In this document: positions 235-24,120 of the stretch, in pieces
How positions within the stretch are numbered: position 1 is the stretch's first letter
Layout of the letters: every line of letters begins with the position of its first letter
The notes under the pieces: model-generated
Told to the model about the DNA's origin: nothing
The model's input: the letters and a program-made list of their open reading frames with translations, nothing else
Database searches by the model: none
NCBI GenBank assembly: GCA_031264885.1
Contig: JAISDM010000016.1
Span: 1-32,163, forward strand
Length of the DNA stretch: 32,163 nucleotides
Source: Peptococcaceae bacterium
GTDB taxonomy: Bacteria; Bacillota; Peptococcia; DRI-13; UBA5745
Reading direction: 5' to 3'
Position numbers and translations under genes: made by a program

Positions 235-302
235 GGGGCGGCAGAATGCCGCCCCTACGATATCGTGAATGATGTGTCTGTAGGGGCGGCATTCTGCCGC
301 CC
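235..302. repeat. pair of inverted GC-rich palindromic repeats
   Basis: GGGCGGCAGAATGCCGCCC followed by CTAC starts at 235, and its reverse complement (GTAGGGGCGGCATTCTGCCGCCC, split here as GTAGGGGCGGC and ATTCTGCCGCCC) ends at 302. The two copies face each other across about 20 bases. Each copy is itself nearly palindromic, so the unit could fold as nested hairpins in RNA. A third copy lies at 21625-21646 between the two esterase genes. This is a REP-like intergenic element; it precedes the trmK promoter. Confidence 0.8.
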
Positions 303-6258: not shown

Positions 6259-7962
6259 TCAATTGTTGGCAGATCCACGCAGCATTGCATCCCAGTCGGA
6301 GGGCAGCTCGATCTTTTTACTTACTGGGTATCCTATAAATCCGTTCTGGGCGCAGACAAGGGTATGATCCCTGGCGGGGTCGCCGCTTACAGCGATCTGT
6401 AAATCATCGGGATCGGAGACCATCTGGACATACCGGTTCGGATCCGCGGACGTGCCCAGCTGTTCAGGCCAGCTCCCGTCTTCGATGCCCTTTTGGAACC
6501 GCGCGATTTCCTTCCCGCTCATATCAGCCGGCTTCAGCTTCGCGTTCTCATAGAGATACCGCTTGATTTTTTCCTTGGTATAGCCAGCCTTCGCCAACTC
6601 TTTCACCACGAGCGGCGTGAGTATGATCAAAGGTCGCGTCTTTTGGCCCCGGAAGAAGAACTGAATGAAAAGATGATTATCAGCCATACGCTTTGCGATG
6701 TTTTCCAGTGTGCCTTCGGCAGTGGGCATACCGGACTCGATCAGCTGAGTCCGCTCCGTGACGGAAGTCAGAGTGACGACATTATCCCCGGTCTTGAAGC
6801 CCCGATCAGCGCTCAATGGCTGCCAGCCGGCCTCGGCAATCGCGTCCTCGTTTTCCGCCAAAACAATTCTGAAGTTATCTCCAAAGCAGCCTTTATCCGC
6901 TTTATGAGGCAAAAATCCGCACACATTCCGTATGTACATACGCAGGAAACGGCCGATGCTGGTATTCGCCTGAAATCCGGGGCGAAGAATTCCCTGGGTA
7001 TAGTTAAACTCCAAATCCTTAATGATCTTGCCATTTATGATAATCAACGTTTCCGTTCCAGGCGTCTGCCCCAGATGCTCCTGGCCAAAATCCGGGTCGC
7101 ACAGCCCTTCGACAATGGCGATCAGTACAGGCATATATTCCGGGCGGCAGCCGCTCATCACGCCGTTTACGGCAATGTTCCAAATTGTCGCCTCACGGTT
7201 ATCCGGCTTCAAGACCCCGACGACCGAACCCGCGGGGCGCGCCGTAAACCGCAGGAATTTCTCCACCTCTTCAATCACCGGCGGAATGACAGGCAGACCG
7301 TCGCTCCACTCGCGCATATAATAAAAGTCGTTGACCTCCTTGAGATTACCGGAAAAAACGATATCTCTCATCCCCGGCTCCTTCACCGGCTTCGCGTCCG
7401 CCGGCTGCACAGTCAGAGCCTTGACAACCTGGTCGGTCATAACCTCGGCCGCGTTCTTATAAATCTCTTCATCCGTAAAGAAATTGACATGTCCCGGATG
7501 AACCGCGTAGGGCAAATTGGGATATCCTTCGCCCGCCGCATTGAAGCCGCCCGCCGTTTGGAAACCGTCACAACAAAGTGTCACGGTGGGAATCCCTAAC
7601 TTCTCAACCAAAATGCTGGTTCGGGTCACGGCGGCGATACAGCTGCCGCAGCAGCCGACGCCGCAGATTACGGCGTCTACGCCAAAGCTCTTCAGCTTCC
7701 CGGGGAGATCGGCCAATACCTCATGCTCCTTGCCCCCGTGAATTTCACCAAACTCCTTCCAGCTTATGAAACGGATCCCGGGATACCGTCTCCCCAACTC
7801 CGCTTCAAATCCCTCGCACATGACATCACCTTTGAAAACCCAATCCCATAACTCCGCTACGACCTTGCCCTCCAGCGTATCCAGGCGCTTCGCGAGTTTA
7901 GCGCCTGTTATGGTGGACTTTCCGCGGGGCCATACAACATCATACACATTGGCGTCTTTCAT
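6259..7962 (-). CDS. UGSC-family (Cys form) / DGLPVIPP-domain fusion protein 1
   Basis: A 567-residue cytoplasmic protein of unknown reaction. Residues about 1-190 resemble the UGSC family, named for a selenocysteine-Gly-Ser-Cys motif in some members. Here the motif is GVGCCGSC with C105 and C108 as a CxxC pair, followed by ILVEKLGIPTV as in the family. From about 200 a second domain begins with MREWSDGLPVIPP (221-228) and carries AVNGVMSGCRPEYMP (about 264-278); I know this type as separate actinobacterial proteins without assigned function. The start has a perfect AGGAGG nearby. No signal peptide or membrane segment is seen. A paralog with the same architecture lies at 18002-19723. Substrate and chemistry are unknown; a thiol-redox or thiol-adduct role is suggested only by the CxxC. 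Confidence 0.75.
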   Translation of the reverse strand: MKDANVYDVVWPRGKSTITGAKLAKRLDTLEGKVVAELWDWVFKGDVMCEGFEAELGRRYPGIRFISWKEFGEIHGGKEHEVLADLPGKLKSFGVDAVICGVGCCGSCIAAVTRTSILVEKLGIPTVTLCCDGFQTAGGFNAAGEGYPNLPYAVHPGHVNFFTDEEIYKNAAEVMTDQVVKALTVQPADAKPVKEPGMRDIVFSGNLKEVNDFYYMREWSDGLPVIPPVIEEVEKFLRFTARPAGSVVGVLKPDNREATIWNIAVNGVMSGCRPEYMPVLIAIVEGLCDPDFGQEHLGQTPGTETLIIINGKIIKDLEFNYTQGILRPGFQANTSIGRFLRMYIRNVCGFLPHKADKGCFGDNFRIVLAENEDAIAEAGWQPLSADRGFKTGDNVVTLTSVTERTQLIESGMPTAEGTLENIAKRMADNHLFIQFFFRGQKTRPLIILTPLVVKELAKAGYTKEKIKRYLYENAKLKPADMSGKEIARFQKGIEDGSWPEQLGTSADPNRYVQMVSDPDDLQIAVSGDPARDHTLVCAQNGFIGYPVSKKIELPSDWDAMLRGSANN

Positions 7963-11096: not shown

Positions 11097-11137
11097 AACG
11101 GCCACTGGTTGGTCACAGCCGGTGGCCACCGTTTTTT
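11097..11137 (+). terminator. intra-operon terminator/attenuator hairpin
   Basis: CCACTGG (11102-11108) pairs with CCGGTGG (11119-11125), extended by neighbouring G-C pairs, and is followed by TTTTTT at 11132-11137. It lies between the binding-protein remnant and the permease genes. Such hairpins commonly cut expression of the membrane parts relative to the binding protein. Confidence 0.65.
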
Positions 11138-11168
11138 AGCTGCTTTATCGAAAGGGGTTATAAAGGAT

Positions 11169-12152
11169 TTGAGCAAGTTCGTTATAAGACGGATACTTTG
11201 GATGATTCCTACACTTCTCTGTGTTGTGCTTCTGATCTTTGTCCTGTTCGAGATAACGCCTGGAGACCCCGCGCTGACAATTCTGCCGAGCGACTCCTGG
11301 ACAGAGGAAAACATCGCGCGGGTTCATAAAGAGCTTGGATTGGACGACCCAATTCTCGTGCGCTATGTCCGTTATTTAGGCAACGCGGTACAAGGCGATC
11401 TCGGCACGAGTTATCTGACCAAAACCTCTGTAACCAATGAGATCGCTCAAAAGTTTCCCTATACAATGAAAATCACATTTATCAGCGTAATTATGGCCAT
11501 CGTCGCCGGCATCCCATTTGGTGTAATCGCGGCAAAACACCAGTACACACTGACAGACAACATTTCCGTTTTTATATCTCTGTTGTTTGTGAGTATGCCA
11601 AATTTCTGGTTCGCGCTTCTGCTTGCGCGATTTTTCGGCGTCCAGCTGGGGTGGCTGCCGACGACCGGCGTCGAGACATGGACAGGGTACATATTACCGA
11701 GCGCCACAGTCGCCATTACTTCACTTGCGGCCATAACCCGTCAGACACGCTCAAGTATGCTTGAGCAAATCCGTCAGGATTATGTCGTCACCGCGCGCGC
11801 CAAGGGTCAGATCGAAGGAAAGGTTATCTACGGCCACGCGCTGAAAAACGCGCTGATCCCGATTATCACAGTCGTCGGTACAAATATTGCCAATCATCTT
11901 GGCGGAACATTGGTCGCGGAGACCATCTTCTCAATCCCCGGCCTTGCCAAGTACATGATTACCGGCCTGAACGGGCGTGATTACCCTGTCGTTCTGGGTT
12001 CAGTCCTTTTTATTTCGGCCGTGTTCTGTATCGTCATGATGGTCGTCGATATTATTTACGCCGTCGTTGACCCGCGTATCCGCATTCAGATGATGAAGAA
12101 GAACAATAGCGGCAGAAAAACCAAGGCCAGAAAGGAGGCTGCGGCAGCGTGA
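11169..12152 (+). CDS. Opp/Dpp-type ABC transporter permease (DppB-like), system 1
   Basis: A 327-residue inner-membrane permease of the peptide/nickel family. An N-terminal helix (FVIRRILWMIPTLLCVVLLIFVL) is followed by the FEITPGDPA loop typical of DppB/OppB, then five further helices. The cytoplasmic coupling loop reads VTARAKGQ...HALKNALIPI (about 215-240). The chosen start is TTG 11169 (MSKFVIRR) with AAAGGGG 11 bases upstream; the open frame extends upstream into the terminator hairpin and that part is rejected. The stop overlaps the next start (GTGA). It partners the permease and two ATPases downstream. Confidence 0.88.
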   Translation: MSKFVIRRILWMIPTLLCVVLLIFVLFEITPGDPALTILPSDSWTEENIARVHKELGLDDPILVRYVRYLGNAVQGDLGTSYLTKTSVTNEIAQKFPYTMKITFISVIMAIVAGIPFGVIAAKHQYTLTDNISVFISLLFVSMPNFWFALLLARFFGVQLGWLPTTGVETWTGYILPSATVAITSLAAITRQTRSSMLEQIRQDYVVTARAKGQIEGKVIYGHALKNALIPIITVVGTNIANHLGGTLVAETIFSIPGLAKYMITGLNGRDYPVVLGSVLFISAVFCIVMMVVDIIYAVVDPRIRIQMMKKNNSGRKTKARKEAAAA

Positions 12153-13006
12153 GTAGAGGAAAAAAACAATTACGTATATACGAAGTCTGGCGTCAGCTTC
12201 GGAAGAATAAATTCGCCATGGCCGGCATGGTGATCATCATTCTGCTGGCGCTTGTCACTATTTTCGCTGATCAGTTAGCGCCATACCACTTTGAGACGGC
12301 CGACTTTTCCGCCTCCTTCGCGAGGCCCTCCGCCGAGCATCCCCTCGGATGCGACAAACTTGGACGCGACACCTTGAGCCGCGTCATTTACGGCGCGAGA
12401 ACGAGTCTGCAAATCGGTCTCGGCGCCACGGTGATCGCCACGGTCGTCGGCGTCGTACTCGGCGCCTTCTGCGGCTACTACGGCGGCTGGATCGACACAA
12501 TTTTTATGCGCTTTCTCGATATCTTCCAGTCCATTCCAAATCTGCTGTTCAGTATCGTGCTTGCGGCATCGCTGGGCGTCGGCGTCAAAAACGCCATCAT
12601 AGCCGTAGGCATAACATCCGCGCCGCTGTTCGCGCGTATGATACGGGGCAGCATTATGCAGATCCGCGGCAGTGAATACATTGAGGCGGCCCGGTCGATC
12701 AACGCGCGGGATCCCCGCGTTATTATCAAGCACATTATCCCCAACGCCATCTCTCCTGTCATCGTACAGATCACCATGAAGATCGGCAGCGCCATCATCT
12801 ATGGCGCGACGCTCAGCTTCATCGGGCTCGGAGCCCAGCCGCCCACAGCCGAGTGGGGCGCGATGATTTCGGAGGCGAGAAATTACATCCGCAATTATCC
12901 GGCGCTTATTATGTATCCCGGCGCCGCCCTGATGATCTGCGTGCTGGCGTTCAATCTGTTTGGCGACGGTCTGCGTGACGCTCTCGATCCGCGTTTGAAG
13001 AACTAA
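12149..13006 (+). CDS. Opp/Dpp-type ABC transporter permease (DppC-like), system 1
   Basis: A 285-residue permease. The N-terminal cytoplasmic tail and first helix (MAGMVIIILLALVTIFADQ) are followed by the DppC hallmark HPLGCDKLGRDTLSRVIYGAR (about 65-84) and then five helices. The coupling EAA loop is EAARSINARDPRVIIKHIIP at about 170-190. It ends FGDGLRDALDPRLK, standard for this family. The start is GTG at 12149 with AAAGGAGG upstream, overlapping the preceding stop by 3 bases. Forms the heterodimeric channel with the preceding permease. Confidence 0.9.
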   Translation: MSRGKKQLRIYEVWRQLRKNKFAMAGMVIIILLALVTIFADQLAPYHFETADFSASFARPSAEHPLGCDKLGRDTLSRVIYGARTSLQIGLGATVIATVVGVVLGAFCGYYGGWIDTIFMRFLDIFQSIPNLLFSIVLAASLGVGVKNAIIAVGITSAPLFARMIRGSIMQIRGSEYIEAARSINARDPRVIIKHIIPNAISPVIVQITMKIGSAIIYGATLSFIGLGAQPPTAEWGAMISEARNYIRNYPALIMYPGAALMICVLAFNLFGDGLRDALDPRLKN

Positions 13007-13019
13007 GGAGGTGGCAGCG

Positions 13020-14024
13020 ATGGAGAAAACGGCTCAGGCCGGCGAGGCTTTCTTAGATATCAAGGATCTCGTCGTTGAGTACCACACCGACGACGCGGTC
13101 ATTCACGCCGTTAACGGTGTAAACCTGAAACTGGCAAAGGGCGAGACGCTCGGCCTCGTTGGTGAAACCGGCGCCGGGAAGACAAGCATCGCCAGAAGCA
13201 TTCTGCGTATTCTGCCAGATCCGCCGGCCAAAATCATGAAAGGCGAAATTTGGTTCAACGGCGAGAATATACTGAAGCTCCCGGAAAAAAAAGTCCGCTC
13301 AATCCGCGGCGATAAAATCAGTATGATATTCCAGGACCCCATGACAGCCCTGAACCCGATTGAAACAGTAGGCAGCCAGATTTCCGAGGCAATCCGGCTG
13401 CATAACAGCATCTCAAGAGCCGACGCCAACAAACAGGCCGTACAAATGCTTGAGACGGTCGGCATCCCCGGCAAGCGTTTCACCAACTATCCTCTTGAGT
13501 TTTCAGGCGGGATGAAGCAGCGGGTGGTTATTGCCATGGCGCTGGCCTGCAAACCGGAACTGCTGCTGGCTGACGAGCCGACCACCGCGCTGGATGTCAC
13601 CATCCAAGCACAGGTACTCGAAATGATGCGTGACCTGCAAAAAGACTTCGGCGCCTCCGTTATCCTGATCACACACGACCTCGGCATCGTGGCCGAAATG
13701 TGCGAGAAGGTCGCCATCATCTACGCCGGAGAGGTCGTTGAATACGGTACGGCGGAGGATATCTTTGACCACCGCGCGCATCCCTATACCGAAGGACTTT
13801 TCGGTTCTATCCCAACGATCCATACCAAAACAAAACGTTTAAATCCCATTCGGGGCATGATGCCCGACCCCGCCAATCTGCCGTCCTGCTGCCGGTTTGC
13901 CGGTCGCTGTCCGTACACCACAGACGAGTGTACAAGCAGCTATCCCGAGATGGTCGAATGCAAGTCCCAGCCACACACAGTACGTTGTGTACGCGCCAGG
14001 GTAAAGGAAGGGGGGAGCCAATGA
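13020..14024 (+). CDS. Opp/Dpp-type ABC transporter ATPase (DppD-like), system 1
   Basis: A 334-residue ATP-binding subunit. Walker A is GETGAGKT at 48-55, the Q loop is MIFQDPMTALNP, the signature is FSGGMKQR, Walker B is LLLADEPTTALDV and the switch His is in ITHDLGI. The C-terminal peptide-transporter extension has the Cys cluster CCRFAGRCPYTTDEC, which in DppD-type ATPases may hold an Fe-S cluster. The start ATG at 13020 has AAGGAGG at ideal spacing; a GTG nine bases earlier is less likely. Stop and next start overlap (ATGA). Confidence 0.92.
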   Translation: MEKTAQAGEAFLDIKDLVVEYHTDDAVIHAVNGVNLKLAKGETLGLVGETGAGKTSIARSILRILPDPPAKIMKGEIWFNGENILKLPEKKVRSIRGDKISMIFQDPMTALNPIETVGSQISEAIRLHNSISRADANKQAVQMLETVGIPGKRFTNYPLEFSGGMKQRVVIAMALACKPELLLADEPTTALDVTIQAQVLEMMRDLQKDFGASVILITHDLGIVAEMCEKVAIIYAGEVVEYGTAEDIFDHRAHPYTEGLFGSIPTIHTKTKRLNPIRGMMPDPANLPSCCRFAGRCPYTTDECTSSYPEMVECKSQPHTVRCVRARVKEGGSQ

Positions 14025-14968
14025 GCGATATTCTCGAAGTACAAGAACTGAAAAAATACTTCCGGGTGGACGGCGGCAGCCAGCTTCACGCGGTAGACGG
14101 TGTCTCCTTCAAAATTGAAAAAGGACAAACCCTTGGCGTCGTCGGGGAGTCCGGCTGCGGTAAATCGACATTGGGCCGCGTCATTCTGCATCTGATCGAA
14201 CCCTCCGGCGGGCAGATTTTCTTTGAAGGCAAGGATATCTCCAATCCTAACCGCAGCATGATCAATTACGTCCGGGAGAACATGCAGATCATTTTCCAAG
14301 ACCCGTTTTCCTCGCTTAACCCGCGTATGAGCGTCAGCGAGACGATCATGGAGCCCATGATTATAAAGGGCGGGATCTCACGGTCCGACATGTACGAGAA
14401 AACATTGAAACTGATGGATACCGTCGGCCTCGCCCAGCGTTTTACGAATTCCTATCCCCATGAACTCGACGGCGGGCGCCGCCAGAGAATCGGCATTGCG
14501 CGCTCGCTCGCGCTTGACCCCAAGTTCATCGTCTGCGACGAGCCCGTCTCCGCGCTGGACGTCTCTATACAGGCACAGATATTGAACCTGCTGCTGGATC
14601 TGCAGGAGGAGCGGAACCTGAGCTATATCTTCATCACTCACGATCTGTCCGTTGTAAAATACATCTCCAACAACATCCTCGTCATGTACCTTGGGCAGAT
14701 GGTCGAACTGGCGCCATCCGACGAGCTGTTTGAGAACCCGGCGCACCCCTACACAGAGGCGCTGCTTTCCGCCATCCCTGTCGCGGATATCCATGTAAAA
14801 CACGAACGCCTCCAAATGAAGGGAGAACTGACGAGTCCGATCGATCCGAAGCCCGGCTGCCGCTTCATGGCCCGCTGCCCATATGCCGCGGAAAAATGCG
14901 CCGAGCCCCAGACACTGCAAAATATCTCCCCGGATCACCAGGTTTCCTGTTGGATGAAGCAATCCTAA
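14021..14968 (+). CDS. Opp/Dpp-type ABC transporter ATPase (DppF-like), system 1
   Basis: A 315-residue second ATPase of the importer. Walker A is GESGCGKST at 42-50, the Q loop is [12 protein letters not shown], Walker B is [14 protein letters not shown] and the switch is ITHDLSVV. The ABC signature reads ELDGGRRQR rather than the common LSGGQ; the paralog at 25125-26087 has the same form, so this is a subfamily trait and not a defect. The C-terminal [14 protein letters not shown] cluster is present. The start overlaps the preceding stop. Last gene of the operon; the exact 27-bp repeat begins two bases after its stop codon. Confidence 0.92.
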
Positions 14969-14969
14969 C

Positions 14970-14996
14970 GCGTAACCGCGTAAAAGACAAATAGAA
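14970..14996. repeat. 27-bp direct repeat, left copy
   Basis: The 27 bases beginning GCGTAACCGCG and ending AAATAGAA are identical to 17522-17548 and in the same orientation. In the right copy they encode the last codons of the membrane-protein gene (VFYAVT on the - strand). In the left copy the same reading frame would end in CGT TAG, giving VFYAVTR and a stop that overlaps the ATPase stop codon. The left copy therefore looks like the displaced original 3' end of that gene. Confidence 0.85.
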
Positions 14997-15041
14997 CGCT
15001 TCGTGTCTGTGGGTTTGCTGTAGACGGGATTTCTGCGTTCT
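14993..15041 (+). terminator. possible terminator after transporter operon 1
   Basis: AGAACGC (14993-14999) can pair with GCGTTCT (15035-15041), with GTCT/AGAC inside the large loop, followed by a T-rich stretch. The loop is long and the stem interrupted, so the call is weak. No better terminator is seen between the operon and the convergent nuclease gene. Confidence 0.3.
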
Positions 15042-15051
15042 TTCGCTTCAA

Positions 15052-15903
15052 TCAGCGGGCTTCTTTCATCAGCTCCTTAATCTGTTCTTCCAATCGAAGT
15101 CTTTCTTCTCTTTCTCTAGCCAATTGTCTTTCTGCCTCCAGCGCCTTCTTTTCCGCCGCCGACGCTTTTTGTTTTTCTTCTAATGCTTTTTGTTTTTCTT
15201 CTTCTATAATCTCTTCCCAGATATCATTCAAATAACGCGTTTCTCCAATCATTTCCAATTCCTCCTTCGTATAATTTACTTCGTTTAACATGCCGTAAAT
15301 CTTTTTAATCCAAGAAGGATCGCTGTCCTTCATTTCGCCGCCCAGAAACAATCGCTGCCACGGTTCCAAATCATCACTCACCGTCTTGGTATACTCGAAA
15401 AAACAAGAAACCGTCGATAGCCCAGGGAACACCAAGTCATGTTTTTTATCGTAAAACTCAAACATATGCACAGCGTCCTCATCTGACTTGATCAATCGAT
15501 CGCCGATGATGTTCAAACTCAAAACCCGTTTCAGACCTTTGTATTTCTTTGCTCCAAAGTTTTTTACAAATCGGTCCGAAGTGTAAAAAAAGGATCGGGT
15601 CGCGAAAATATTCCTGGTTTGCATTTGCAGTTCCACAATGAAATCCCCCGCGTCAAACGCCGCGGATATGTCTTTGATGGTTTCCTTGATTTTTCGAACT
15701 TCACCGTCGCGCTCAAAATAAGAATGAAAGCTGTATGGATTTGAAATCACAATATCTTTGGCGTCTATGCCGAAGAAATCATGAATCGTGCCCCACAGAA
15801 CTTCTTCGCTCTCGCCCGGTGTCGTCGTCGCTTTGCGAAACACAAGATCATTCGTGATCGACAAGCCTTTTTTCCTTTTTTCAGGTTCGGTTTCTTTCGC
15901 CAT
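15052..15903 (-). CDS. Rpn-family PD-(D/E)XK nuclease (PDDEXK_2, transposase-like)
   Basis: A 283-residue protein of the recombination-promoting nuclease / PD-(D/E)XK 'transposase' family. The start motif KGLSITNDLVFRKATTT is followed by the nuclease core with D78 and the pair E91-x-Q93 in FIVELQMQTRN. A middle segment LKRVLSLNIIGDRL is typical, and the protein ends in a charged coiled coil (EEKQKALEEKQKAS...EERLRLEEQIKEL). The start ATG at 15903 has GGGAG eight bases upstream; a longer frame to 16062 has no such support. Rpn proteins act as DNA endonucleases that raise RecA-independent recombination. The base composition is AT-richer than the neighbouring transporter genes, and the gene lies inside a block bounded by 27-bp direct repeats, so recent acquisition is likely. 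Confidence 0.85.
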   Translation of the reverse strand: MAKETEPEKRKKGLSITNDLVFRKATTTPGESEEVLWGTIHDFFGIDAKDIVISNPYSFHSYFERDGEVRKIKETIKDISAAFDAGDFIVELQMQTRNIFATRSFFYTSDRFVKNFGAKKYKGLKRVLSLNIIGDRLIKSDEDAVHMFEFYDKKHDLVFPGLSTVSCFFEYTKTVSDDLEPWQRLFLGGEMKDSDPSWIKKIYGMLNEVNYTKEELEMIGETRYLNDIWEEIIEEEKQKALEEKQKASAAEKKALEAERQLAREREERLRLEEQIKELMKEAR

Positions 15904-16067
15904 AATCAATACTCCCATCGTTTTCTCAATTGGTTTGACATCATGAATCCCCCATAAAGAAATGATAGCATAGAATTCTCCAAAAATAAATATCCGAAAT
16001 TGACTTTGAGGCTTTGAGGGGGACGGATGCCGCCAAACGCAATGAATAATAAAAGGAGGCATACAAT

Positions 16068-17483
16068 TTGAAAAAGAAACTTTTACGAAGAAACTTTCTC
16101 AAATACGGCGCAGCAATAGGAACGGTGGCTTTAGTTGCAGCGGTTTTAGCCGGTTGTGGTAGCGCGGTCACTCCATCCTCCGGCGCAGAATCATCTGCAG
16201 TCTCATCCTCCGGTACATCGGAATCATTGCCCTCGGTTCAGGCGACGGAACCCGGAGCAATAAAACAATCATATTATCGTGTCAGCGGCGCGAATATAAT
16301 GCTCTACGAGCCGATTGAACCCGGAGAAAACGCAAAAATCCTGCTCGCCTCCATGCACGGCGGCCTGGGCCGGACTCTGGAGCAAAATTTCCTCAAAACC
16401 GTGGCTACGCTGGGATTTCGTACTATGTATTGTGTCCCAGACCACGCATCGTTTGTTGATCAGTTCAAAGATTTTGCGAACTGCATGACGTTTGCTCGGG
16501 AATATGATGGCGTCACAAAAATTATCCTGATGGGGCAGAGCCGCGGCGCCGCCGTAATGAGTGCCTACCAGAAAATTGCCGAGAATGGTGCAGATGTGTT
16601 TCAAGGGCCTGAGCGACGCCTACCCATTCCCGATATAGTGTGTTCCCCGGCTGACGGTCTCATGTTGCTTGACGCAAATTTTGGTTTTATGGTAATGCAT
16701 GTCATGTCCATGAACCCCGCTCTCATTGAGGAAGGTAACGCGATGAAGGTAGACCCTGAGCTTGACGCATTGAACCCCGAAAATGGTTTTGGCGAAGAAG
16801 AGTGCCATTACACCGAGGAGTTCCGCCGCAAATTCCTAACAGCCCAAAGGTCACGCTATTACGAGCTGATGGATCTGGCAGAGGAGCGTTGGGGGCTGAT
16901 CCAAAACGGAGAGGGTAATTTCTCGGATAACGAGCCGTTTATTGTGCCTGATTGCATTGGTACTAACAATTCGCCGAAGCTGTTTGCCGGTGATATAAGC
17001 TATTTCTCCCGAACCAAGGGGGCTTACGATCTCATCCATCCAGATGGCTCCATCACCAATGAAGTTATTCGGTGTCTGCGCCCAAACGAGAACAACCCCG
17101 CTTTCGCTGGCACCAAAGAGGCTGCCTTTGAGACAACCGTCAAGGACTTCTTTTGGATGGAGGTTAACATTACCGAAGACTATGACTACGGCGAGGATTA
17201 TCTGACCGGCGTCGATTTTGAAAGCAGCTTCACCTGTTCCAGTGGCAATGTAAAGATGATATCCTGTCCGCTGCTACTGATGGGCCATACGGCCGGATAC
17301 GAGTTCATTACTGCGGAGTGGTCCTACGAAAACGCAAACAGTGCTGATAAAACCATCGCGTTTACCGAAGGCGCCACGCACGGATGGTCTTCCATCGACA
17401 AGGACAAATATGGTGATACACTTCTAACCGAGGCCAAATATGTGGCCGACTGGATGACGGCGGAAGGGCGCTTTGTTGACTAA
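16068..17483 (+). CDS. exported alpha/beta-hydrolase lipoprotein (Tat-like signal)
   Basis: A 471-residue predicted cell-surface hydrolase. The N-terminus has a twin-arginine motif RRNFLKYG (R7-R8), a hydrophobic stretch and the lipobox LAGC with C30, followed by a Ser-rich linker to about 65. The hydrolase domain shows SMHGGLG (oxyanion region, about 95-101), nucleophile S158 in GQSRG and catalytic His near 438 in GATHGWSS. The acid residue is not certain. Start TTG at 16068 has AAAGGAGG eight bases upstream. The gene is divergent from the nuclease gene and lies in the same repeat-bounded block. The likely job is opening an ester or related bond outside the cell before uptake; the substrate is unknown. 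Confidence 0.72.
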   Translation: MKKKLLRRNFLKYGAAIGTVALVAAVLAGCGSAVTPSSGAESSAVSSSGTSESLPSVQATEPGAIKQSYYRVSGANIMLYEPIEPGENAKILLASMHGGLGRTLEQNFLKTVATLGFRTMYCVPDHASFVDQFKDFANCMTFAREYDGVTKIILMGQSRGAAVMSAYQKIAENGADVFQGPERRLPIPDIVCSPADGLMLLDANFGFMVMHVMSMNPALIEEGNAMKVDPELDALNPENGFGEEECHYTEEFRRKFLTAQRSRYYELMDLAEERWGLIQNGEGNFSDNEPFIVPDCIGTNNSPKLFAGDISYFSRTKGAYDLIHPDGSITNEVIRCLRPNENNPAFAGTKEAAFETTVKDFFWMEVNITEDYDYGEDYLTGVDFESSFTCSSGNVKMISCPLLLMGHTAGYEFITAEWSYENANSADKTIAFTEGATHGWSSIDKDKYGDTLLTEAKYVADWMTAEGRFVD

Positions 17484-17504
17484 ACTTCGTTCTTTGCTAA
17501 TCCA

Positions 17505-17999
17505 TTAAAGAATTACAAGATGCGTAACCGCGTAAAAGACAAATAGAATAACCGTCCCGGCCAGGCAGATGCGGCAGCGGTCGATATACTGCTGCCGTGT
17601 CTCCGGCCTTTTTTTGAAGTGCTTGCGCCATCCGGAATTCTCGTCCATTACCGCGGCGCCATCTGAATCCGGCTCTGAACCTCGTTTTCGCAGTGTGCTT
17701 AACCGGAAAAGGCTGAGGATCACGGTGACAGCGCCGAATCCCAGCCAACAGTAAAACGCAGAAAAACTGAGGTTTTGCCGGTACTTATCGGCGCCATAAA
17801 CGCCGTATTTCAGCCAAGCCCCTGTCTCCCCGAAAGCCATGGCTATGGTCCCGCCTATCGTAATCCAAAAAAAGATTCGGCTGAGTTCAAGCAGGATAGA
17901 CCCCTCGGCGCTTCGTGTAATCCTCTCCCGCTTTTTTTCAAGCGACCTGCGGAACACATCGTCGTCGCCCTTGCCAAAGCGTTGTAGTAGATTAAACAT
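17505..17999 (-). CDS. small membrane protein, unknown function
   Basis: A 164-residue protein with three predicted transmembrane helices (about 43-57, 80-98 and 144-164) and a charged N-terminal tail (DDDVFRRSLEKKRERITRS). I do not recognise a family. It starts two bases after the stop of the second UGSC fusion, so it is co-transcribed and probably works with it, for example as a membrane anchor. Its last codons lie inside the right-hand 27-bp repeat; the sequence beyond the repeat supplies HLVIL and the stop, whereas the left-hand repeat copy would give R and stop. The C-terminus therefore appears altered by rearrangement. Confidence 0.7.
   Translation of the reverse strand: MFNLLQRFGKGDDDVFRRSLEKKRERITRSAEGSILLELSRIFFWITIGGTIAMAFGETGAWLKYGVYGADKYRQNLSFSAFYCWLGFGAVTVILSLFRLSTLRKRGSEPDSDGAAVMDENSGWRKHFKKRPETRQQYIDRCRICLAGTVILFVFYAVTHLVIL
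17522..17548. repeat. 27-bp direct repeat, right copy
   Basis: Identical to 14970-14996 over 27 bases and in the same orientation. It overlaps the 3' end of the small membrane-protein gene. Together the copies bound a 2.5-kb block that carries the Rpn nuclease and the Tat-type hydrolase. Confidence 0.85.
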
Positions 18000-18001
18000 A
18001 T

Positions 18002-19723
18002 TTACATCTGAGCTTCTTTCAGCATTTCATTCCAATGATCCGGGAGCTTGACCGCCTGGCTGGTGAGCTTGCCCATCGAGTAGTTCGACCGGAAGAACTG
18101 GCTGCGGTTACGGGTCGGATCCCCGACGACAATGACGACAATGTTGGCTTCTTTCCAGAACAGCGGCACCATACGCTTGGGGTCGTCGGATTCATACCAT
18201 TCCGGATCAAGATTCCCCATCCCGACCTCTTCCTTTAAGCTGTAAGGCTGCCAATGATTAAACCGGGATACGTTCGTTTCGAAGTACTCGGCGGTAACCT
18301 TCGCGTGGGCGAGGATGTACTTTGTAATGGATTCTTTATCATACCCGCTCCCGGCAAGCAGCTTCGCGACGGCCGGGCTTAAGAACAGGACGTTGTTATC
18401 CTGATATCTGCGCATTGTCTGATAGGGTTCAGTCATCCTGGCTGCCCAGTCGGTCAGATAATCCAGATGCTGTTCCGCGGTGGAACCGTTCGTCTGCATC
18501 GGGTCGCTGCATACGCGGCCGGAAACGATCGTGACGACGTTTTCGCCTTTGTCGAAGCCCTGCGTCTCAGCGACTGTCTTGAAGCCGATTTCTTCACAGA
18601 CTTGGTCATTCTCCGGGATAACCGGACGGAACATCTGTCCGTAGGTCGACATATCCGTCGAACCGATCTGGAACCCGGCGATGTTGCGCAGTATCAGGCG
18701 ATAGAAGCGGCCTACCGTTACGTTCGGCATACAATCCGGACGCTGATGCCCGATTTTGTAGTTGAATTTAAGTTGATCACGAATGGGCCCGTTCAGCATG
18801 ATCATCGCTTCCCACCCCGGAGTGGCGCCGGAGTCTTTGACGCTAAACTCAGGGGTCGCCATGATCTCGGCGATGGCGAGAAGCAGCGGGAAATATTCCG
18901 GATGACAGCCGGCCATAACACCGTTAACCGCGACTTTCCAAACAGTGCAGGAGGCCATGGACGGCTCCATAATGCCGATCACTTCCTCAGGATCGCGGTC
19001 CGTGAATTTCAGGAACTTCTCAATTTTTTCAACAGTCGGAGGGACAATCGGAAGACCGTCCGACCATTTCATTTCGTAGAAATAATCCTGGATCTCCTCG
19101 TTGCTTCCCTCAAAAATAATATCGCGGGAAGCCGGCCCTCTCTTTCTTTCCCTAGCCGTACTTTTGACAGGCGTTGTAAGGGCGGCGGCGATCTTCGGAA
19201 CGACAGCGTCACGAATGTTTTTGCGGACGGTATCCGCCGAATCCAGCGCGATCGGGTTCGGATATTCCACGAAACGGGCGTCCGGGTAGCCGGCGCTCTT
19301 CGCGTTCTGTTTTGCCATGGGTGGGAAGCCCTTGCAGAGTATGCCGACAGCCGGAATGCCCTGCCGCTCGACCAACACAACGCCGCGCGCCACAGCGGGA
19401 GAGCAGGTACCGCAGCAGCCGTTGCCGACAATTACGGCGTCAATGCCGTTTTTCTTAAGCTGTTCCGGAAGAGCCGCCATCATCTCGGCTTCATAAGACG
19501 GATCATGGAAATTGCCGAAGGTCTTGTAGCCGACAAATTTAATGTCCGGATACATGGCTTTTAATTCTTCTTCAATCATCGGGAAGGTTTCATCGCCGCG
19601 GAACGCCCAGTTCCAAAGCTCGCCGATGGTTTTTCCGTTGAGATCGGGGATGGACGGAGAAACTGTTTTGTCTTTTGAGACAGATACCGCGGCTGGATAA
19701 ACAACCTGAAGAACGCCACTCAT
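18002..19723 (-). CDS. UGSC-family (Cys form) / DGLPIVPP-domain fusion protein 2
   Basis: A 573-residue paralog of the protein at 6259-7962 with the same two-part architecture. The N-terminal UGSC-like domain has GNGCCGTC with C104 and C107 as the CxxC pair, preceded by GIDAVIV and followed by VVLVERQGIPAVGIL. The second domain opens with MKWSDGLPIVPP (about 227) and carries AVNGVMAGCHPEYFP. The C-terminal part ends in a VVGDPTRNRSQF segment. No Sec codon: the position equivalent to Sec is an ordinary Cys codon in both paralogs. It has its own strong promoter (TTGGAC-N17-TATAAT) and the composite operator upstream; the ribosome site is weak (AAAGAAG). Co-transcribed with the small membrane protein. 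Reaction unknown. Confidence 0.75.
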   Translation of the reverse strand: MSGVLQVVYPAAVSVSKDKTVSPSIPDLNGKTIGELWNWAFRGDETFPMIEEELKAMYPDIKFVGYKTFGNFHDPSYEAEMMAALPEQLKKNGIDAVIVGNGCCGTCSPAVARGVVLVERQGIPAVGILCKGFPPMAKQNAKSAGYPDARFVEYPNPIALDSADTVRKNIRDAVVPKIAAALTTPVKSTARERKRGPASRDIIFEGSNEEIQDYFYEMKWSDGLPIVPPTVEKIEKFLKFTDRDPEEVIGIMEPSMASCTVWKVAVNGVMAGCHPEYFPLLLAIAEIMATPEFSVKDSGATPGWEAMIMLNGPIRDQLKFNYKIGHQRPDCMPNVTVGRFYRLILRNIAGFQIGSTDMSTYGQMFRPVIPENDQVCEEIGFKTVAETQGFDKGENVVTIVSGRVCSDPMQTNGSTAEQHLDYLTDWAARMTEPYQTMRRYQDNNVLFLSPAVAKLLAGSGYDKESITKYILAHAKVTAEYFETNVSRFNHWQPYSLKEEVGMGNLDPEWYESDDPKRMVPLFWKEANIVVIVVGDPTRNRSQFFRSNYSMGKLTSQAVKLPDHWNEMLKEAQM

Positions 19724-19883: not shown

Positions 19884-21554
19884 CTATATGCGGTACAACC
19901 GCGTGGCATACTCATATATAAGCGCGTCCAGCCCCTCGCTCACGCCTTGGTAATGGCGCATTTCGCCGTCTTGGTCCAAGTACCCGAAGTCATCCCCGGC
20001 TGACGGCCAATAAGGCAGCCCCTCACCGTTAGGATCTCCCTTGCGGCAGAAATTCGCCCAATAGCCGCAGACGATGTCCGCCACCCGATAATCCAATTCC
20101 CGCCAGGGGCGGTTCGCCGGTACGCCGCCGGCAAGCGACCGGAAAGCATACCACTGGTCGCTGCCGTGAAACGCCAGCCGAAGGTCGGGGTTCATCTTTG
20201 GATCCGTCATATCTTCGGGGTGAACCGGGGGTATATGCGACCACAGGTAAGCGTATACGGACATGTTTGGGCGCAACTTCTTCATGTGCATACCGAACAG
20301 CCGGTGCAGCATCAAACTGCGGGCGCCGCTGGACTTCCCGTTGCCGGTCAGCCCCAGCGAGGCCAGCCGCCTGGCTTTCTTTGCCGCGTTTTCGTCCGTT
20401 ACCTTCACGAGCGCCTCAAAATCATACTTATCGTACAAATCCCCCAGCATATAGCGAAAATGAGCGTAAAAATCAGCCGCGTTCCCGATGGATTTCTTTA
20501 GGGGATATCGCGTTTCCCCGTCTCCGTCGTGGTGCCCAAGGTAAAACACAGGGTCGCCCGGATCCGTAAAAACCAGCGCCTCCCCGTAGGTGGCGCCGCC
20601 CATAACGTCGATATCGTAATCCAGCTTCTCAAACGCCTCATAAAAAGAACCGTATGGAATATAGTCCCCGTCGCATACCATATCGCCTATGACATAATCC
20701 CGCGCCAAATCAAAGCTGAACACGCGCTCTGCCGGCAGCTTGCGCAGATCGTCCAGGGGCGTGTCCGCCGCGATGCCCAACTGTCCCAGGTAATCTGTCC
20801 CGAACCGCTCCGCCTCCGGCACGGTGGGGAATTTCATGAACCAACGGAAAACACTCTGGGCAATAACGCGCTTCACCCGTCCGCGGGCATAGGGGCACAG
20901 GGCGATGGCGTTGGATTTCCATGTGCCGCCCGACACGCCGCCCACGGTAATGTTGTTCGGATCGCCGCCAAATTGCTCAATATTCTCCGTTACCCAGTCC
21001 AGCGCGGCCAACTGATCCATTAGCCCATAGTTGCCGCTTTTCCCGCCCTGCTCGGCCGAAAGCTGCGGCAGCGCGATATAACCGAACGGGCCAAGGCGCT
21101 GCCCCACACTCACGGCCACAATGCCGCGTTTGGCGAGGCCGACGGGGTTGTTCTGCACTTCATAGGAAAACCCGGTGGTCAGACCGCCCCCATGAAACCA
21201 GATAAACACGGGCCGTTTCTCGCCGGGCCGCGCCGCGCCTGTGCAAACGTTCAGATACAGGCAGTCCTCGCTGATTGCCGGCGCCGCCGCGGATACCGTG
21301 TCGTCATCGCCCTTCACGTCGGCGGAATCCCGGCGGTGTACCCATTTCATATCCTGGTAGGCAGCCGGCGCAAACGAGTCACAGCTGCGCACCCCATCCC
21401 AAGGGGCAGGCGGCGCGGGCGGCGCCCACCTAAGCGGACCCACCGGCGGAGCGGCATATGGAATGCCCTTAAACAGCGTCAAACCGTCCGCGTCTTCCCC
21501 TGCCGAAACACCCCGCGTCTTCCCGTATATCGTTTTTACAATCCCAATCGGCAT
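19884..21554 (-). CDS. type-B carboxylesterase 1
   Basis: A 556-residue alpha/beta-hydrolase of the carboxylesterase type B family, no signal peptide, so cytoplasmic. Family landmarks: LFKGIPYAAPPVGPLRW, SEDCLYLNV (about 95-103), oxyanion HGGG at 121-124, nucleophile S208 in GGVSGG, a Glu in TYGEALVF as likely acid, and His 463 in FHGSDQ. The nucleophile elbow is GVSGG instead of the common GESAG. It ends with the usual GDPNGEGLPYWP block. The ATG at 21554 has AAGGAG eight bases upstream; an ATG six bases earlier is too close to it. It lies downstream of esterase 2, across a relic tail and a palindromic repeat, probably in one transcript. Confidence 0.85.
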   Translation of the reverse strand: MPIGIVKTIYGKTRGVSAGEDADGLTLFKGIPYAAPPVGPLRWAPPAPPAPWDGVRSCDSFAPAAYQDMKWVHRRDSADVKGDDDTVSAAAPAISEDCLYLNVCTGAARPGEKRPVFIWFHGGGLTTGFSYEVQNNPVGLAKRGIVAVSVGQRLGPFGYIALPQLSAEQGGKSGNYGLMDQLAALDWVTENIEQFGGDPNNITVGGVSGGTWKSNAIALCPYARGRVKRVIAQSVFRWFMKFPTVPEAERFGTDYLGQLGIAADTPLDDLRKLPAERVFSFDLARDYVIGDMVCDGDYIPYGSFYEAFEKLDYDIDVMGGATYGEALVFTDPGDPVFYLGHHDGDGETRYPLKKSIGNAADFYAHFRYMLGDLYDKYDFEALVKVTDENAAKKARRLASLGLTGNGKSSGARSLMLHRLFGMHMKKLRPNMSVYAYLWSHIPPVHPEDMTDPKMNPDLRLAFHGSDQWYAFRSLAGGVPANRPWRELDYRVADIVCGYWANFCRKGDPNGEGLPYWPSAGDDFGYLDQDGEMRHYQGVSEGLDALIYEYATRLYRI

Positions 21555-21581
21555 GGTCATCTCTCCTTAAACGGTACGTAT

Positions 21582-21617
21582 TCATAGCCCGCGCAGACTC
21601 TTGATCAGCCCGGGTCC
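21582..21617 (-). pseudogene. leftover C-terminal tail of a third carboxylesterase
   Basis: Read on the - strand the bases encode PGLIKSLRGL and a TGA stop, almost the same as the end of esterase 2 (PGLIKSLREL and TAA). The flanking bases also match: 21572-21615 and 21647-21690 form a direct repeat of about 44 bases with few differences. The body of the gene is gone. This suggests that a tandem array of esterase genes collapsed by deletion, leaving the tail between the two survivors. Confidence 0.7.
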
Positions 21618-21624
21618 GGATTGA

Positions 21625-21646
21625 GGGCGGCAGAATGCCGCCCCTA
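21625..21646. repeat. GC-rich palindromic repeat, third copy
   Basis: GGGCGGCAGAATGCCGCCCC followed by TAC, the same unit as the inverted pair at 235-302. It sits between the esterase relic and the stop codon of esterase 2, within the presumed esterase transcript, where it could form an RNA hairpin. Confidence 0.8.
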
Positions 21647-21656
21647 CGGTACATAT

Positions 21657-23132
21657 TTATAGTTCGCGCAGACTCTTGATCAGCCCCGGATGGTCGGCTG
21701 CGAAGCGAACGGCCTGCTTGGCGGCGGGGTTCCGCGCCAATTCCTCCGCCGCGTATCCCATATCGGTAAAGTGCATGGACACCGGGTTTTCTTTAGTATA
21801 GGCCGGCCAAGGCTTCAACCCTTCCCCGTTCGGGTCGCCCGTCTTTGCGAAATTGGTCCAATAATCCACCATCGCTTCCGACAATTCCTTATCATACGCG
21901 GTGAAACCGCCGTTTCCCGCGTCAGCCGCTTCCACCATGCCCATCACATACCGGATCTCGCTGCCGTGAGGCGTAGGGTTCTGCAGTCCCCTTTGCCGGG
22001 CGGGGGGCTGGGTCCGTTCGAAGTGGTAGGTGAATATCGGCCTGCGTCCCGTGTCTGTCTGCCGAATTGCCCAGGAAACGCCTCTGGAATAGACGAACGC
22101 CGGAATCATCCTCTCGTCGGCCACTTCATGGCGCACGATTTTGATCCATCCGCTGTCGCCGCTGACAGACCCGGCAATCACCGGAATATCCGCACATTCG
22201 CCTTTCCATATCCCCACGCCGGGCGTAACCGTCAGGATGTCGCCGTCAATGTCCGGCTGGAACACCGATTTCTCCCAGGATTCCAGTTCCCCGGCAGTGG
22301 CGTCCCGCAGCATGTCGTTCACCTCGCCGGCGTCCTTTTTCATCAAATCATCCGCCGTCCAGCCGAGTCTGTCCATTCCCCGCCGGCAGACGCCGATTTT
22401 TTCATCCAACGGACGATAATTGTCGGAATCGGTCACGCCGCCGCCGGATTCCACGATCACCCGCCGCATCATGTGCCGCGCGCGGGGTGAACACATCAGC
22501 ATGCGGGCGCTCATCCCGCCCGCGGAGAATCCGAACACCGTAATATTGTCCGCGTCCCCCCCGAATGCGCCGATGTTCCCGCGAACCCAGGAAAGAGCCG
22601 CTATCTGGTCCAGAAGCCCGTAGTTTCCCGTCGTCCCGTCCCGCGCTTTCAACGCGTCCAACGCAAGGAAGCCCAGCGCGCCCAAGCGGTAATTGACCGT
22701 GACCAAGATCACGCCCTTCCGCGCGAACGCCTCCCCGTCAAATTCCGGGGAAGTCCCGCATCCGGTAACAAACCCGCCCCCGTGGATCCAGAACATGACC
22801 GGGCAATTTCCCCTCTCGGATTCCCTCCCTGCCGGGCCGCCGCCCGTTTTCCCCGCCGCTCCCGCAGGCGCCCAGATATTCAGGTACAGGCAATCCTCAC
22901 CGATCTCCCGGACGTCCGGGTCGCCGAAGGGTTTATGCTGCACCGCGGACGCGGAGAATTTATCACAAAGAAGCACCCCCGCCCATGGCAGCGGTCTTTG
23001 GGGCGGCGTGAACCGCAGCATGCCCACAGGCGGCCTGGCGTAGGGGATCCCCTTAAACACCGTGACATTCTCATCCCTCCCCGGCACACCCTTCAGCAAG
23101 CCATATTGTGTGGGAACTGTATCCATAGCCAT
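21657..23132 (-). CDS. type-B carboxylesterase 2
   Basis: A 491-residue cytoplasmic esterase. It shows VFKGIPYARPPVGMLRF near the N-terminus, GEDCLYLNIW (about 78-87), oxyanion HGGG at 117-120, nucleophile S203 in GFSAGG and His 389 in TPHGSE. The acid appears to be D326 in SGDSGW where most members have Glu. The AKTGDPNGEGLKPWP block near the end is normal. The ATG at 23132 has AAGGAG seven bases upstream; the 46-codon upstream extension crosses a hairpin and is rejected. It sits between the LysR pair and esterase 1 on the same strand, so those regulators may control it. Confidence 0.88.
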   Translation of the reverse strand: MAMDTVPTQYGLLKGVPGRDENVTVFKGIPYARPPVGMLRFTPPQRPLPWAGVLLCDKFSASAVQHKPFGDPDVREIGEDCLYLNIWAPAGAAGKTGGGPAGRESERGNCPVMFWIHGGGFVTGCGTSPEFDGEAFARKGVILVTVNYRLGALGFLALDALKARDGTTGNYGLLDQIAALSWVRGNIGAFGGDADNITVFGFSAGGMSARMLMCSPRARHMMRRVIVESGGGVTDSDNYRPLDEKIGVCRRGMDRLGWTADDLMKKDAGEVNDMLRDATAGELESWEKSVFQPDIDGDILTVTPGVGIWKGECADIPVIAGSVSGDSGWIKIVRHEVADERMIPAFVYSRGVSWAIRQTDTGRRPIFTYHFERTQPPARQRGLQNPTPHGSEIRYVMGMVEAADAGNGGFTAYDKELSEAMVDYWTNFAKTGDPNGEGLKPWPAYTKENPVSMHFTDMGYAAEELARNPAAKQAVRFAADHPGLIKSLREL

Positions 23133-23165
23133 AAGATTTCTCCTTCCGCGGACGAGTATGAGTTT

Positions 23166-23198
23166 AGGACTTGTGCAACTTATTATTGCACAAGTCCT
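23166..23198. repeat. perfect 13-bp hairpin between LysR gene and esterase 2
   Basis: AGGACTTGTGCAA and TTGCACAAGTCCT flank a seven-base loop (CTTATTA). No T run follows on the - strand, so it is not a classical terminator. It may be an intergenic repeat unit, an RNA processing site or an operator. It lies 34 bases upstream of the esterase 2 start codon. Confidence 0.75.
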
Positions 23199-23211
23199 TA
23201 GACGCTCAAGT

Positions 23212-24120
23212 TTAGACCCCCGCCGTTCCGGGGTTGGGCGCGCCTTCCCCGTTTGCCGCTTCATCCACAAACACTCGGACAGACGGGTTATCGGCGGGAT
23301 CGCAGTAGTACATGTTTACGTCGAAAGCGCAAGGCACGGTCGTGACCTGGGAAAGCGCGATATTGCGGTACTCCCCGCTGACCACGGACTTGGGTACGAT
23401 GGTCACGCCGTTTCCAAGGGAAACCATCAGCAAGGCGCTGTCCACATTTGGCACGGGGATCACATTGATCCGCCCGTTCGTATGTTTTTCCGCAAGTATG
23501 CGGTTCTGCGCGTACGGCCCCCAGAATTCGTCGTCAAAAGGCACAAACAGGTTTTCTTTTTCCAACTCTTTCAACTCGACAAACGGGGATTTTTGCAGCC
23601 GGCGGCCTGCCGGGAAAGCCACGAAGGCCGCCTGGCGAAAGGCTGCGGAGCATTTGATTTTATCCAACAGCTGCGTGTACGCGCAGGGGGACAGAAACAC
23701 GTCGTTTTCGAGGATTTCGCGGGATGTGACCGGCCCCCGCGCCACGCTGAGCGACAGGGCGATCCCCCGGTACCGGGCGGAAAACCGATGGATGAAGTCC
23801 AATGTGCCGCGCCCCAGGGAGCTTCTCGTGCAGGCGATTTTGAGCGTTCCGCCATCGGTTTGCCCGCCGATTTTGATGCGGCTTTCCAGTTTCGCGCATT
23901 TTTGAATCAGCCGCGCCGCGTCAAGCGATAACTGCTTGCCCGCCTCCGTCAGGCACATGGCGCGCGTGCTGCGCACGAACAGCTTGAATCCCAATTCTTC
24001 CTCCATTTCAAGGATATGACGGCTCAACACAGACTGGGTGATGTAGAGTTTTTTTGCCGCCAAGCTGTAGCTGCGCGTGTCGGCAAGCACCAGGAACTCC
24101 TGCAGGCGGTTCGTGGTCAT
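23212..24120 (-). CDS. LysR-family transcriptional regulator 3
   Basis: A 302-residue regulator: helix-turn-helix at 1-60 (NRLQEFLVLADTRSYSLAAK, TQSVLSRHILEMEEELG), effector domain about 90-300. Its start codon overlaps the stop of the next LysR gene upstream (ATGA, 24117-24120), so the two regulators are co-translated. It directly precedes the esterase pair on the same strand. Inducer unknown; esterases or transporter 2 are the natural targets. Confidence 0.9.
   Translation of the reverse strand: MTTNRLQEFLVLADTRSYSLAAKKLYITQSVLSRHILEMEEELGFKLFVRSTRAMCLTEAGKQLSLDAARLIQKCAKLESRIKIGGQTDGGTLKIACTRSSLGRGTLDFIHRFSARYRGIALSLSVARGPVTSREILENDVFLSPCAYTQLLDKIKCSAAFRQAAFVAFPAGRRLQKSPFVELKELEKENLFVPFDDEFWGPYAQNRILAEKHTNGRINVIPVPNVDSALLMVSLGNGVTIVPKSVVSGEYRNIALSQVTTVPCAFDVNMYYCDPADNPSVRVFVDEAANGEGAPNPGTAGV

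Follow-up and report, generated by a model that had tools for sequence, protein, structure and literature searches.

Genes and repeats at the locus

The window, by which we mean the whole stretch of 32,163 nucleotides from a Peptococcaceae bacterium that was analysed here, contains an oligopeptide-type ABC transporter operon on the forward strand and, facing it, a small membrane-protein gene, a gene for a UGSC-domain protein and two carboxylesterase genes (Table 1). Between the last ATPase gene of the operon and the membrane-protein gene lies a block that is bounded by a pair of 27-bp direct repeats. As the earlier note had described, the block carries a recombination-promoting nuclease gene, which is intact, and a gene of the alpha/beta-hydrolase type with an export signal. 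The sequence between the repeats is poorer in GC than the flanking ABC and UGSC genes (42–51% versus 53–56%), and no inverted repeats were found at the block ends. Scans for Rfam families and tRNA genes gave no matches, and the window holds neither a tRNA nor a tmRNA gene.

Table 1. Positions of genes and other features in and around the repeat-bounded block
Feature	Position	Strand	Remarks
Two permeases and OppD/DppD-type ATPase	11109..14024	+	same ABC operon as the next gene; from sequence and homology
OppF/DppF-type ATPase	13928..14968	+	closes the oligopeptide ABC operon
Left 27-bp direct repeat	14970..14996	+	starts 1 bp past the ATPase stop codon
Stretch between the repeats, 2525 bp	14997..17521		GC 42–51%
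DNA common to the window and the rpn remnants on contig C283	~15028..16010		86–95% identity per fragment
rpn, PD-(D/E)XK nuclease gene, 286 aa	15052..15912	-	PDDEXK_2 (PF12784); repetitive, coiled-coil-like C-terminus
Candidate internal start in rpn	15052..15252	-	putative separate 66-aa C-terminal protein (RpnS-like antitoxin); from sequence only, cf. PMC10327210
Exported alpha/beta-hydrolase-type gene	16068..17483	+	GQSRG nucleophile motif; predicted Tat (twin-arginine)/lipoprotein-type signal
Small membrane-protein gene (orphan)	17505..17999	-	C-terminus at present ...FVFYAVTHLVIL; in the joined layout ...FVFYAVTR
Right 27-bp direct repeat	17522..17548	+	within the 3' end of the membrane-protein gene
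UGSC-domain protein	18002..19723	-	directly upstream of the membrane-protein gene
Two carboxylesterase genes	19884..23270	-	homologues of the hydrolase in Curtobacterium and a Lachnospiraceae bacterium have relatives of the first gene nearby

When the block is removed and the two flanks are joined at the repeat, the membrane protein becomes 160 amino acids long and its stop codon (CTA on the forward strand, 14965–14967) overlaps the TAA of the ATPase gene (14966–14968). This layout had been proposed in the earlier note, and our recomputation gave the same result. Homologues of the membrane protein that would reveal its natural C-terminus were sought in 399 genomes of the phylum, at loci of UGSC relatives and at hydrolase loci, and none was convincing.

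Uniqueness of the 27-bp repeat

The two copies of the repeat (GCGTAACCGCGTAAAAGACAAATAGAA) are exact and in the same orientation, as the earlier note had stated, with 2552 bp from start to start. The repeat is statistically striking and far beyond chance: by a simple estimate, exact pairs of 27 bp or more would be expected about 2e-8 times in 32 kb, and shuffled versions of the window gave 0 matches. It is not scattered over many unrelated places, since no third copy with up to three mismatches was found in the whole genome (3.26 Mb, 308 contigs), and the block ends, too, were searched for in the genome and have no further copies. Exact direct repeats were also surveyed in 1.19 Mb of the genome, sampled as 122 contig stretches. 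Among repeats with just two copies and unrelated flanks, this pair was the longest; the runner-up in that sample, of 22 bp, is itself a remnant of rpn upstream sequence. The longer dispersed repeats in the genome belong mostly to many-copy REP-like families. A 19-bp repeat on contig C47 and many longer repeats were rejected as comparators, as these were REP-like clusters. Such REP-like palindromic repeats (the GGGCGGCAGAATGCCGCCCCTAC and GTCATTCCGGGCTTGTCCCGGAATCC families) are abundant in this genome and often clustered, for example at window positions 236–302 and 21625–21651 and on many other contigs.

The draft assembly is of the metagenome type and consists of 308 contigs, so one might ask whether two unrelated stretches were falsely joined through a shared 27-mer. 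This is hardly credible. Both junctions lie inside a 32-kb contig, and the commonest length of contig-end overlaps, with runs of N set aside, is 119 bp, which places the assembler's final k far above 27, so that a spurious join at a repeat of this length is unlikely.

The rpn nuclease gene

The nuclease belongs to the PDDEXK_2 family, scoring 38.6 bits (E = 1.3e-9) against the PF12784 profile, for which the curated cut-off is 27.4. An alternative start further upstream, at 16062, is possible for the open reading frame. Within the gene, the ATG at 15252 on the reverse strand is preceded at 8 nt by AAGGAGG, a sequence resembling a strong ribosome-binding site, from which the putative small C-terminal protein could be made. 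Rpn proteins have been described as phage-defence nucleases of the toxin/antitoxin type with variable C-termini (PMC10327210), and the family traits of the window protein fit such a role, making it a putative toxin or phage-defence nuclease. Searches with PADLOC and against PDB sequences returned no match. We found no rpn gene in the 45 other genomes of the class, suggesting that the gene was probably acquired. No close match was detected in named genomes or viral contigs and none in phages; relatives on plasmids share only 24–27% identity.

Other copies of rpn do occur in this genome. Remnants on contig C283 share with the window a segment (~15028–16010) that includes neither the hydrolase nor the 27 bp, and a second, partial relative on contig C117 (75–90% identity) carries a larger number of C-terminal repeats than does the gene in the window. 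On C283 a DUF6398 gene is flanked by two co-oriented, decayed rpn copies (L014, 1–1151); one of these remnants has internal deletions, and at a junction there is an overlap of 7 bp. On C117 a gene resembling that for cobyric acid synthase lies between a 60-bp rpn fragment and the partial copy (L015, 3891–5914), the latter running past the contig end. A promoter-like segment of about 46 bp that belongs to the sequence upstream of rpn also occurs by itself on C283, 5' of an unrelated hydrolase gene (window 15955–16010; L014 1097–1151 and 4549–4594).

The earlier note had suggested that the nuclease itself may have taken part in the insertion. A possible mechanism would be that Rpn mobilised the block by staggered cuts 27 bp apart. 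Rpn proteins are nucleases, they have been reported to raise RecA-independent recombination in E. coli, with possible repeated insertion at one locus (PMC5350276), and several decayed rpn copies are present in this genome. However, the other copies share only the ~15028–16010 segment and occur without the repeat and without the hydrolase, and a published comparison found rpn gene ends to be variable and target-site duplications to be absent, judging a role as a transposase unlikely and finding autonomous transposition of rpn genes to be unsupported (PMC10327210). We therefore consider this mechanism very improbable, and the nuclease as mover of the block is not supported by what was tested. 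The broader proposition that PDDEXK_2/Rpn staggered cuts drive the insertion of adjacent DNA, with a target duplication that at 27 bp would be unusually long, is a long shot. If it were true, it would represent mobility driven by a protein fold for which no autonomous transposase is known.

The hydrolase gene and its neighbours

The hydrolase gene is present in one copy in the genome, and a search of the order turned up no genuine homologue; the nearest relative found is in Curtobacterium pusillum, which belongs to a distant phylum (55–57% identity). An alignment-based scan of named genomes yielded 80 hydrolase loci. None of them (0/80) has an rpn homologue beside the hydrolase, which argues against the block as one mobile unit. 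At 26 of the 80 loci an oligopeptide-type ABC operon is encoded on the strand of the hydrolase, no more than about 6 kb away, and at 5 there is an esterase like those of the window. At a Treponema locus the hydrolase is directly downstream of an OppF-type ATPase gene, and at three clostridial loci it follows such a gene after about 0.6–1 kb. At the C. pusillum locus a relative of the first window esterase is encoded about 4 kb from the hydrolase, while a Lachnospiraceae locus combines this type of esterase, the hydrolase and an ABC operon. Carboxylesterase genes adjoin the hydrolase on Agrobacterium plasmids, and loci of Rhizobiaceae likewise pair it with esterases. The association of the hydrolase with ABC operons and esterases is thus real at the level of the family. 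Because the homologous loci often hold ABC operons of the same kind, and some of them esterases, the window hydrolase fits its neighbours by function.

These loci provide the main rival to the insertion of a whole segment. The hydrolase may have stood beside the ABC operon already, with only a unit of about 1 kb containing rpn arriving between the ATPase gene and the hydrolase; the left 27 bp would then be filler that break repair or template switching copied from the membrane-protein gene end at a distance of 2.5 kb. Consistent with this are the adjacency to oligopeptide operons in Treponema and at the three clostridial loci, the pairing with esterases at the Curtobacterium, Lachnospiraceae and Rhizobiaceae loci, and the fact that the DNA common to the other rpn copies stops at ~15028 and ~16010, outside the hydrolase. 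The trees point the other way: the window hydrolase falls outside the ABC-linked clade, where it pairs with that of Curtobacterium, and the permease of the window ABC operon groups with a paralogue in the same genome and not with hydrolase-linked operons. Co-inheritance of the hydrolase and the ABC operon in this genome is thus unsupported by the trees. In addition, the left filler must by chance have supplied an in-frame overlapping stop codon, for which our own estimate is roughly 5–10%, no other filler was found around rpn when templates for its other junction sequences were sought, and the codon usage of the hydrolase is as atypical as that of rpn. Arrival of rpn on its own with templated filler, while the leading competitor, is for these reasons rather unlikely.

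Codon usage and a possible origin of the block

Codon typicality was scored relative to 632 long genes from the sampled stretches of the genome. The hydrolase (2.5th percentile) and rpn (4th percentile) are both outliers, whereas the values of the ABC, UGSC and esterase genes are unremarkable (21st to 41st percentile) and the short membrane-protein gene is somewhat atypical (5th percentile). Codon usage favours a joint and more recent arrival of rpn and the hydrolase, though the two genes may have had separate histories.

Our preferred reading, to which we assign a probability of about 0.47, is that a foreign segment with both rpn and the exported hydrolase was inserted once into the last codons of the membrane-protein gene, duplicating 27 bp, with Rpn as a passenger. 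The data show the repeat and its uniqueness, the overlap of the two stop codons, the unusual composition of both genes and the separate occurrence of rpn and the hydrolase at other loci; from these we infer a single event, its direction and the manner of joining. Such an event would require no transposase and would leave 27 bp of the membrane-protein gene at both ends of the segment. The lack of inverted repeats at the ends and of a recognised recombinase among the block genes is in keeping with it, as are the distant phylum of the nearest hydrolase relative and the absence of rpn from the 45 other genomes of the class. The likeliest route may be illegitimate or homology-facilitated joining, for which two forms can be envisaged. 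Staggered breaks could have been filled in on both sides, or homologous recombination within the end of the membrane-protein gene could have been combined with an illegitimate join 27 bp away, beside the ATPase stop codon. Homology-facilitated illegitimate recombination is known in several bacteria (PMC3240628). The hydrolase was probably retained as suited to a cluster of oligopeptide transporter and esterase genes, and the nuclease, of the toxin or phage-defence type, would probably have been carried along.

A single insertion of the whole segment accounts together for the geometry of the repeat, for the overlap of the two stop codons in the joined layout and for the unusual composition that rpn and the hydrolase have in common. 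By itself it leaves the fit between the hydrolase and its neighbours unexplained, so that this fit must then reflect selection. Two points count against a single insertion. The hydrolase could predate rpn, because its family recurs beside oligopeptide ABC operons and esterases, and the foreign stretch may extend past the repeat, because the membrane-protein gene is also atypical. The interpretation in the earlier note is upheld in part: the repeat beyond chance, the compact joined layout and the codon outliers agree with insertion of foreign DNA into the last codons of the membrane-protein gene and duplication of its 3' end, while the block as one mobile unit and the nuclease as its engine are not supported.

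Comparison with known systems

Both Rpn families of COG5464 (PF12784, PDDEXK_2; PF04754, Transposase_31) comprise recombination-promoting nucleases with a PD-(D/E)XK fold that are patchily distributed, horizontally acquired and present in multiple copies, and the window gene resembles them in these respects. It is also similar in its repetitive C-terminus, with a repeat number that varies between copies, and it may share with them an internal start from which a small C-terminal protein would be made. It is only a distant relative of the named Rpn proteins (about 24–27% identity), and it differs in lying within perfect 27-bp flanking repeats, whereas target-site duplications were absent from published comparisons of rpn genes (PMC10327210).

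Insertion sequences and transposons also bound an inserted segment with direct repeats, but the window block lacks terminal inverted repeats, its repeat is longer than their usual target duplications, and it contains no DDE, HUH or tyrosine transposase and has no other copies. No recognised transposase was identified in the block. The only candidate match was PDDEXK_2, whose Pfam name contains the word "transposase" although autonomous transposition is unsupported by published work. No further element with the same ends was found, and the block and the hydrolase are single-copy in the genome.

Genomic islands and other integrative elements at the 3' ends of genes share with the block the site of insertion and direct repeats of att-like length. 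The 27 bp could accordingly be attL and attR, produced by site-specific integration at a gene 3' end with a recombinase acting in trans; the repeat is perfect and the interrupted gene stays open. The block, however, consists of two genes only, neither of which matches a tyrosine or serine recombinase in Pfam or NCBIfam, no tRNA or tmRNA gene is available as a target in the window, and the genome contains neither a second insertion nor another copy of the site. Site-specific integration is thus improbable.

A parallel to our preferred reading is homology-facilitated illegitimate recombination (PMC3240628), which would attach foreign DNA through homology at one end and without it at the other and can leave a short duplication; its part in forming the block is putative. 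An insertion is plausible, and the gain of these genes would be of an ordinary kind. The repeat most likely marks a chance, one-off insertion of foreign DNA at a gene end and not a novel type of mobile element.

For the question of how rpn genes come to spread with no hallmarks of a transposase, this locus offers one recent-looking junction with a clear duplication. Were the 27 bp a genuine target duplication connected with Rpn, they would be relevant to a possible role of these nucleases in moving DNA. At present the locus serves mainly as an example of the one-off gain of a defence-type gene beside a cluster of transporter and esterase genes.

UGSC-family genes

The window contains two genes for UGSC-family proteins (6259–7962 and 18002–19723), neither of which has an in-frame stop codon. 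Several of their relatives (L032, L029–L031) have one in-frame TGA, a possible selenocysteine codon. Elsewhere in the genome, on contig C286 (L087, 4449–4973), a YhgA-like gene of the other Rpn branch (Transposase_31, PF04754) adjoins a UGSC paralogue.
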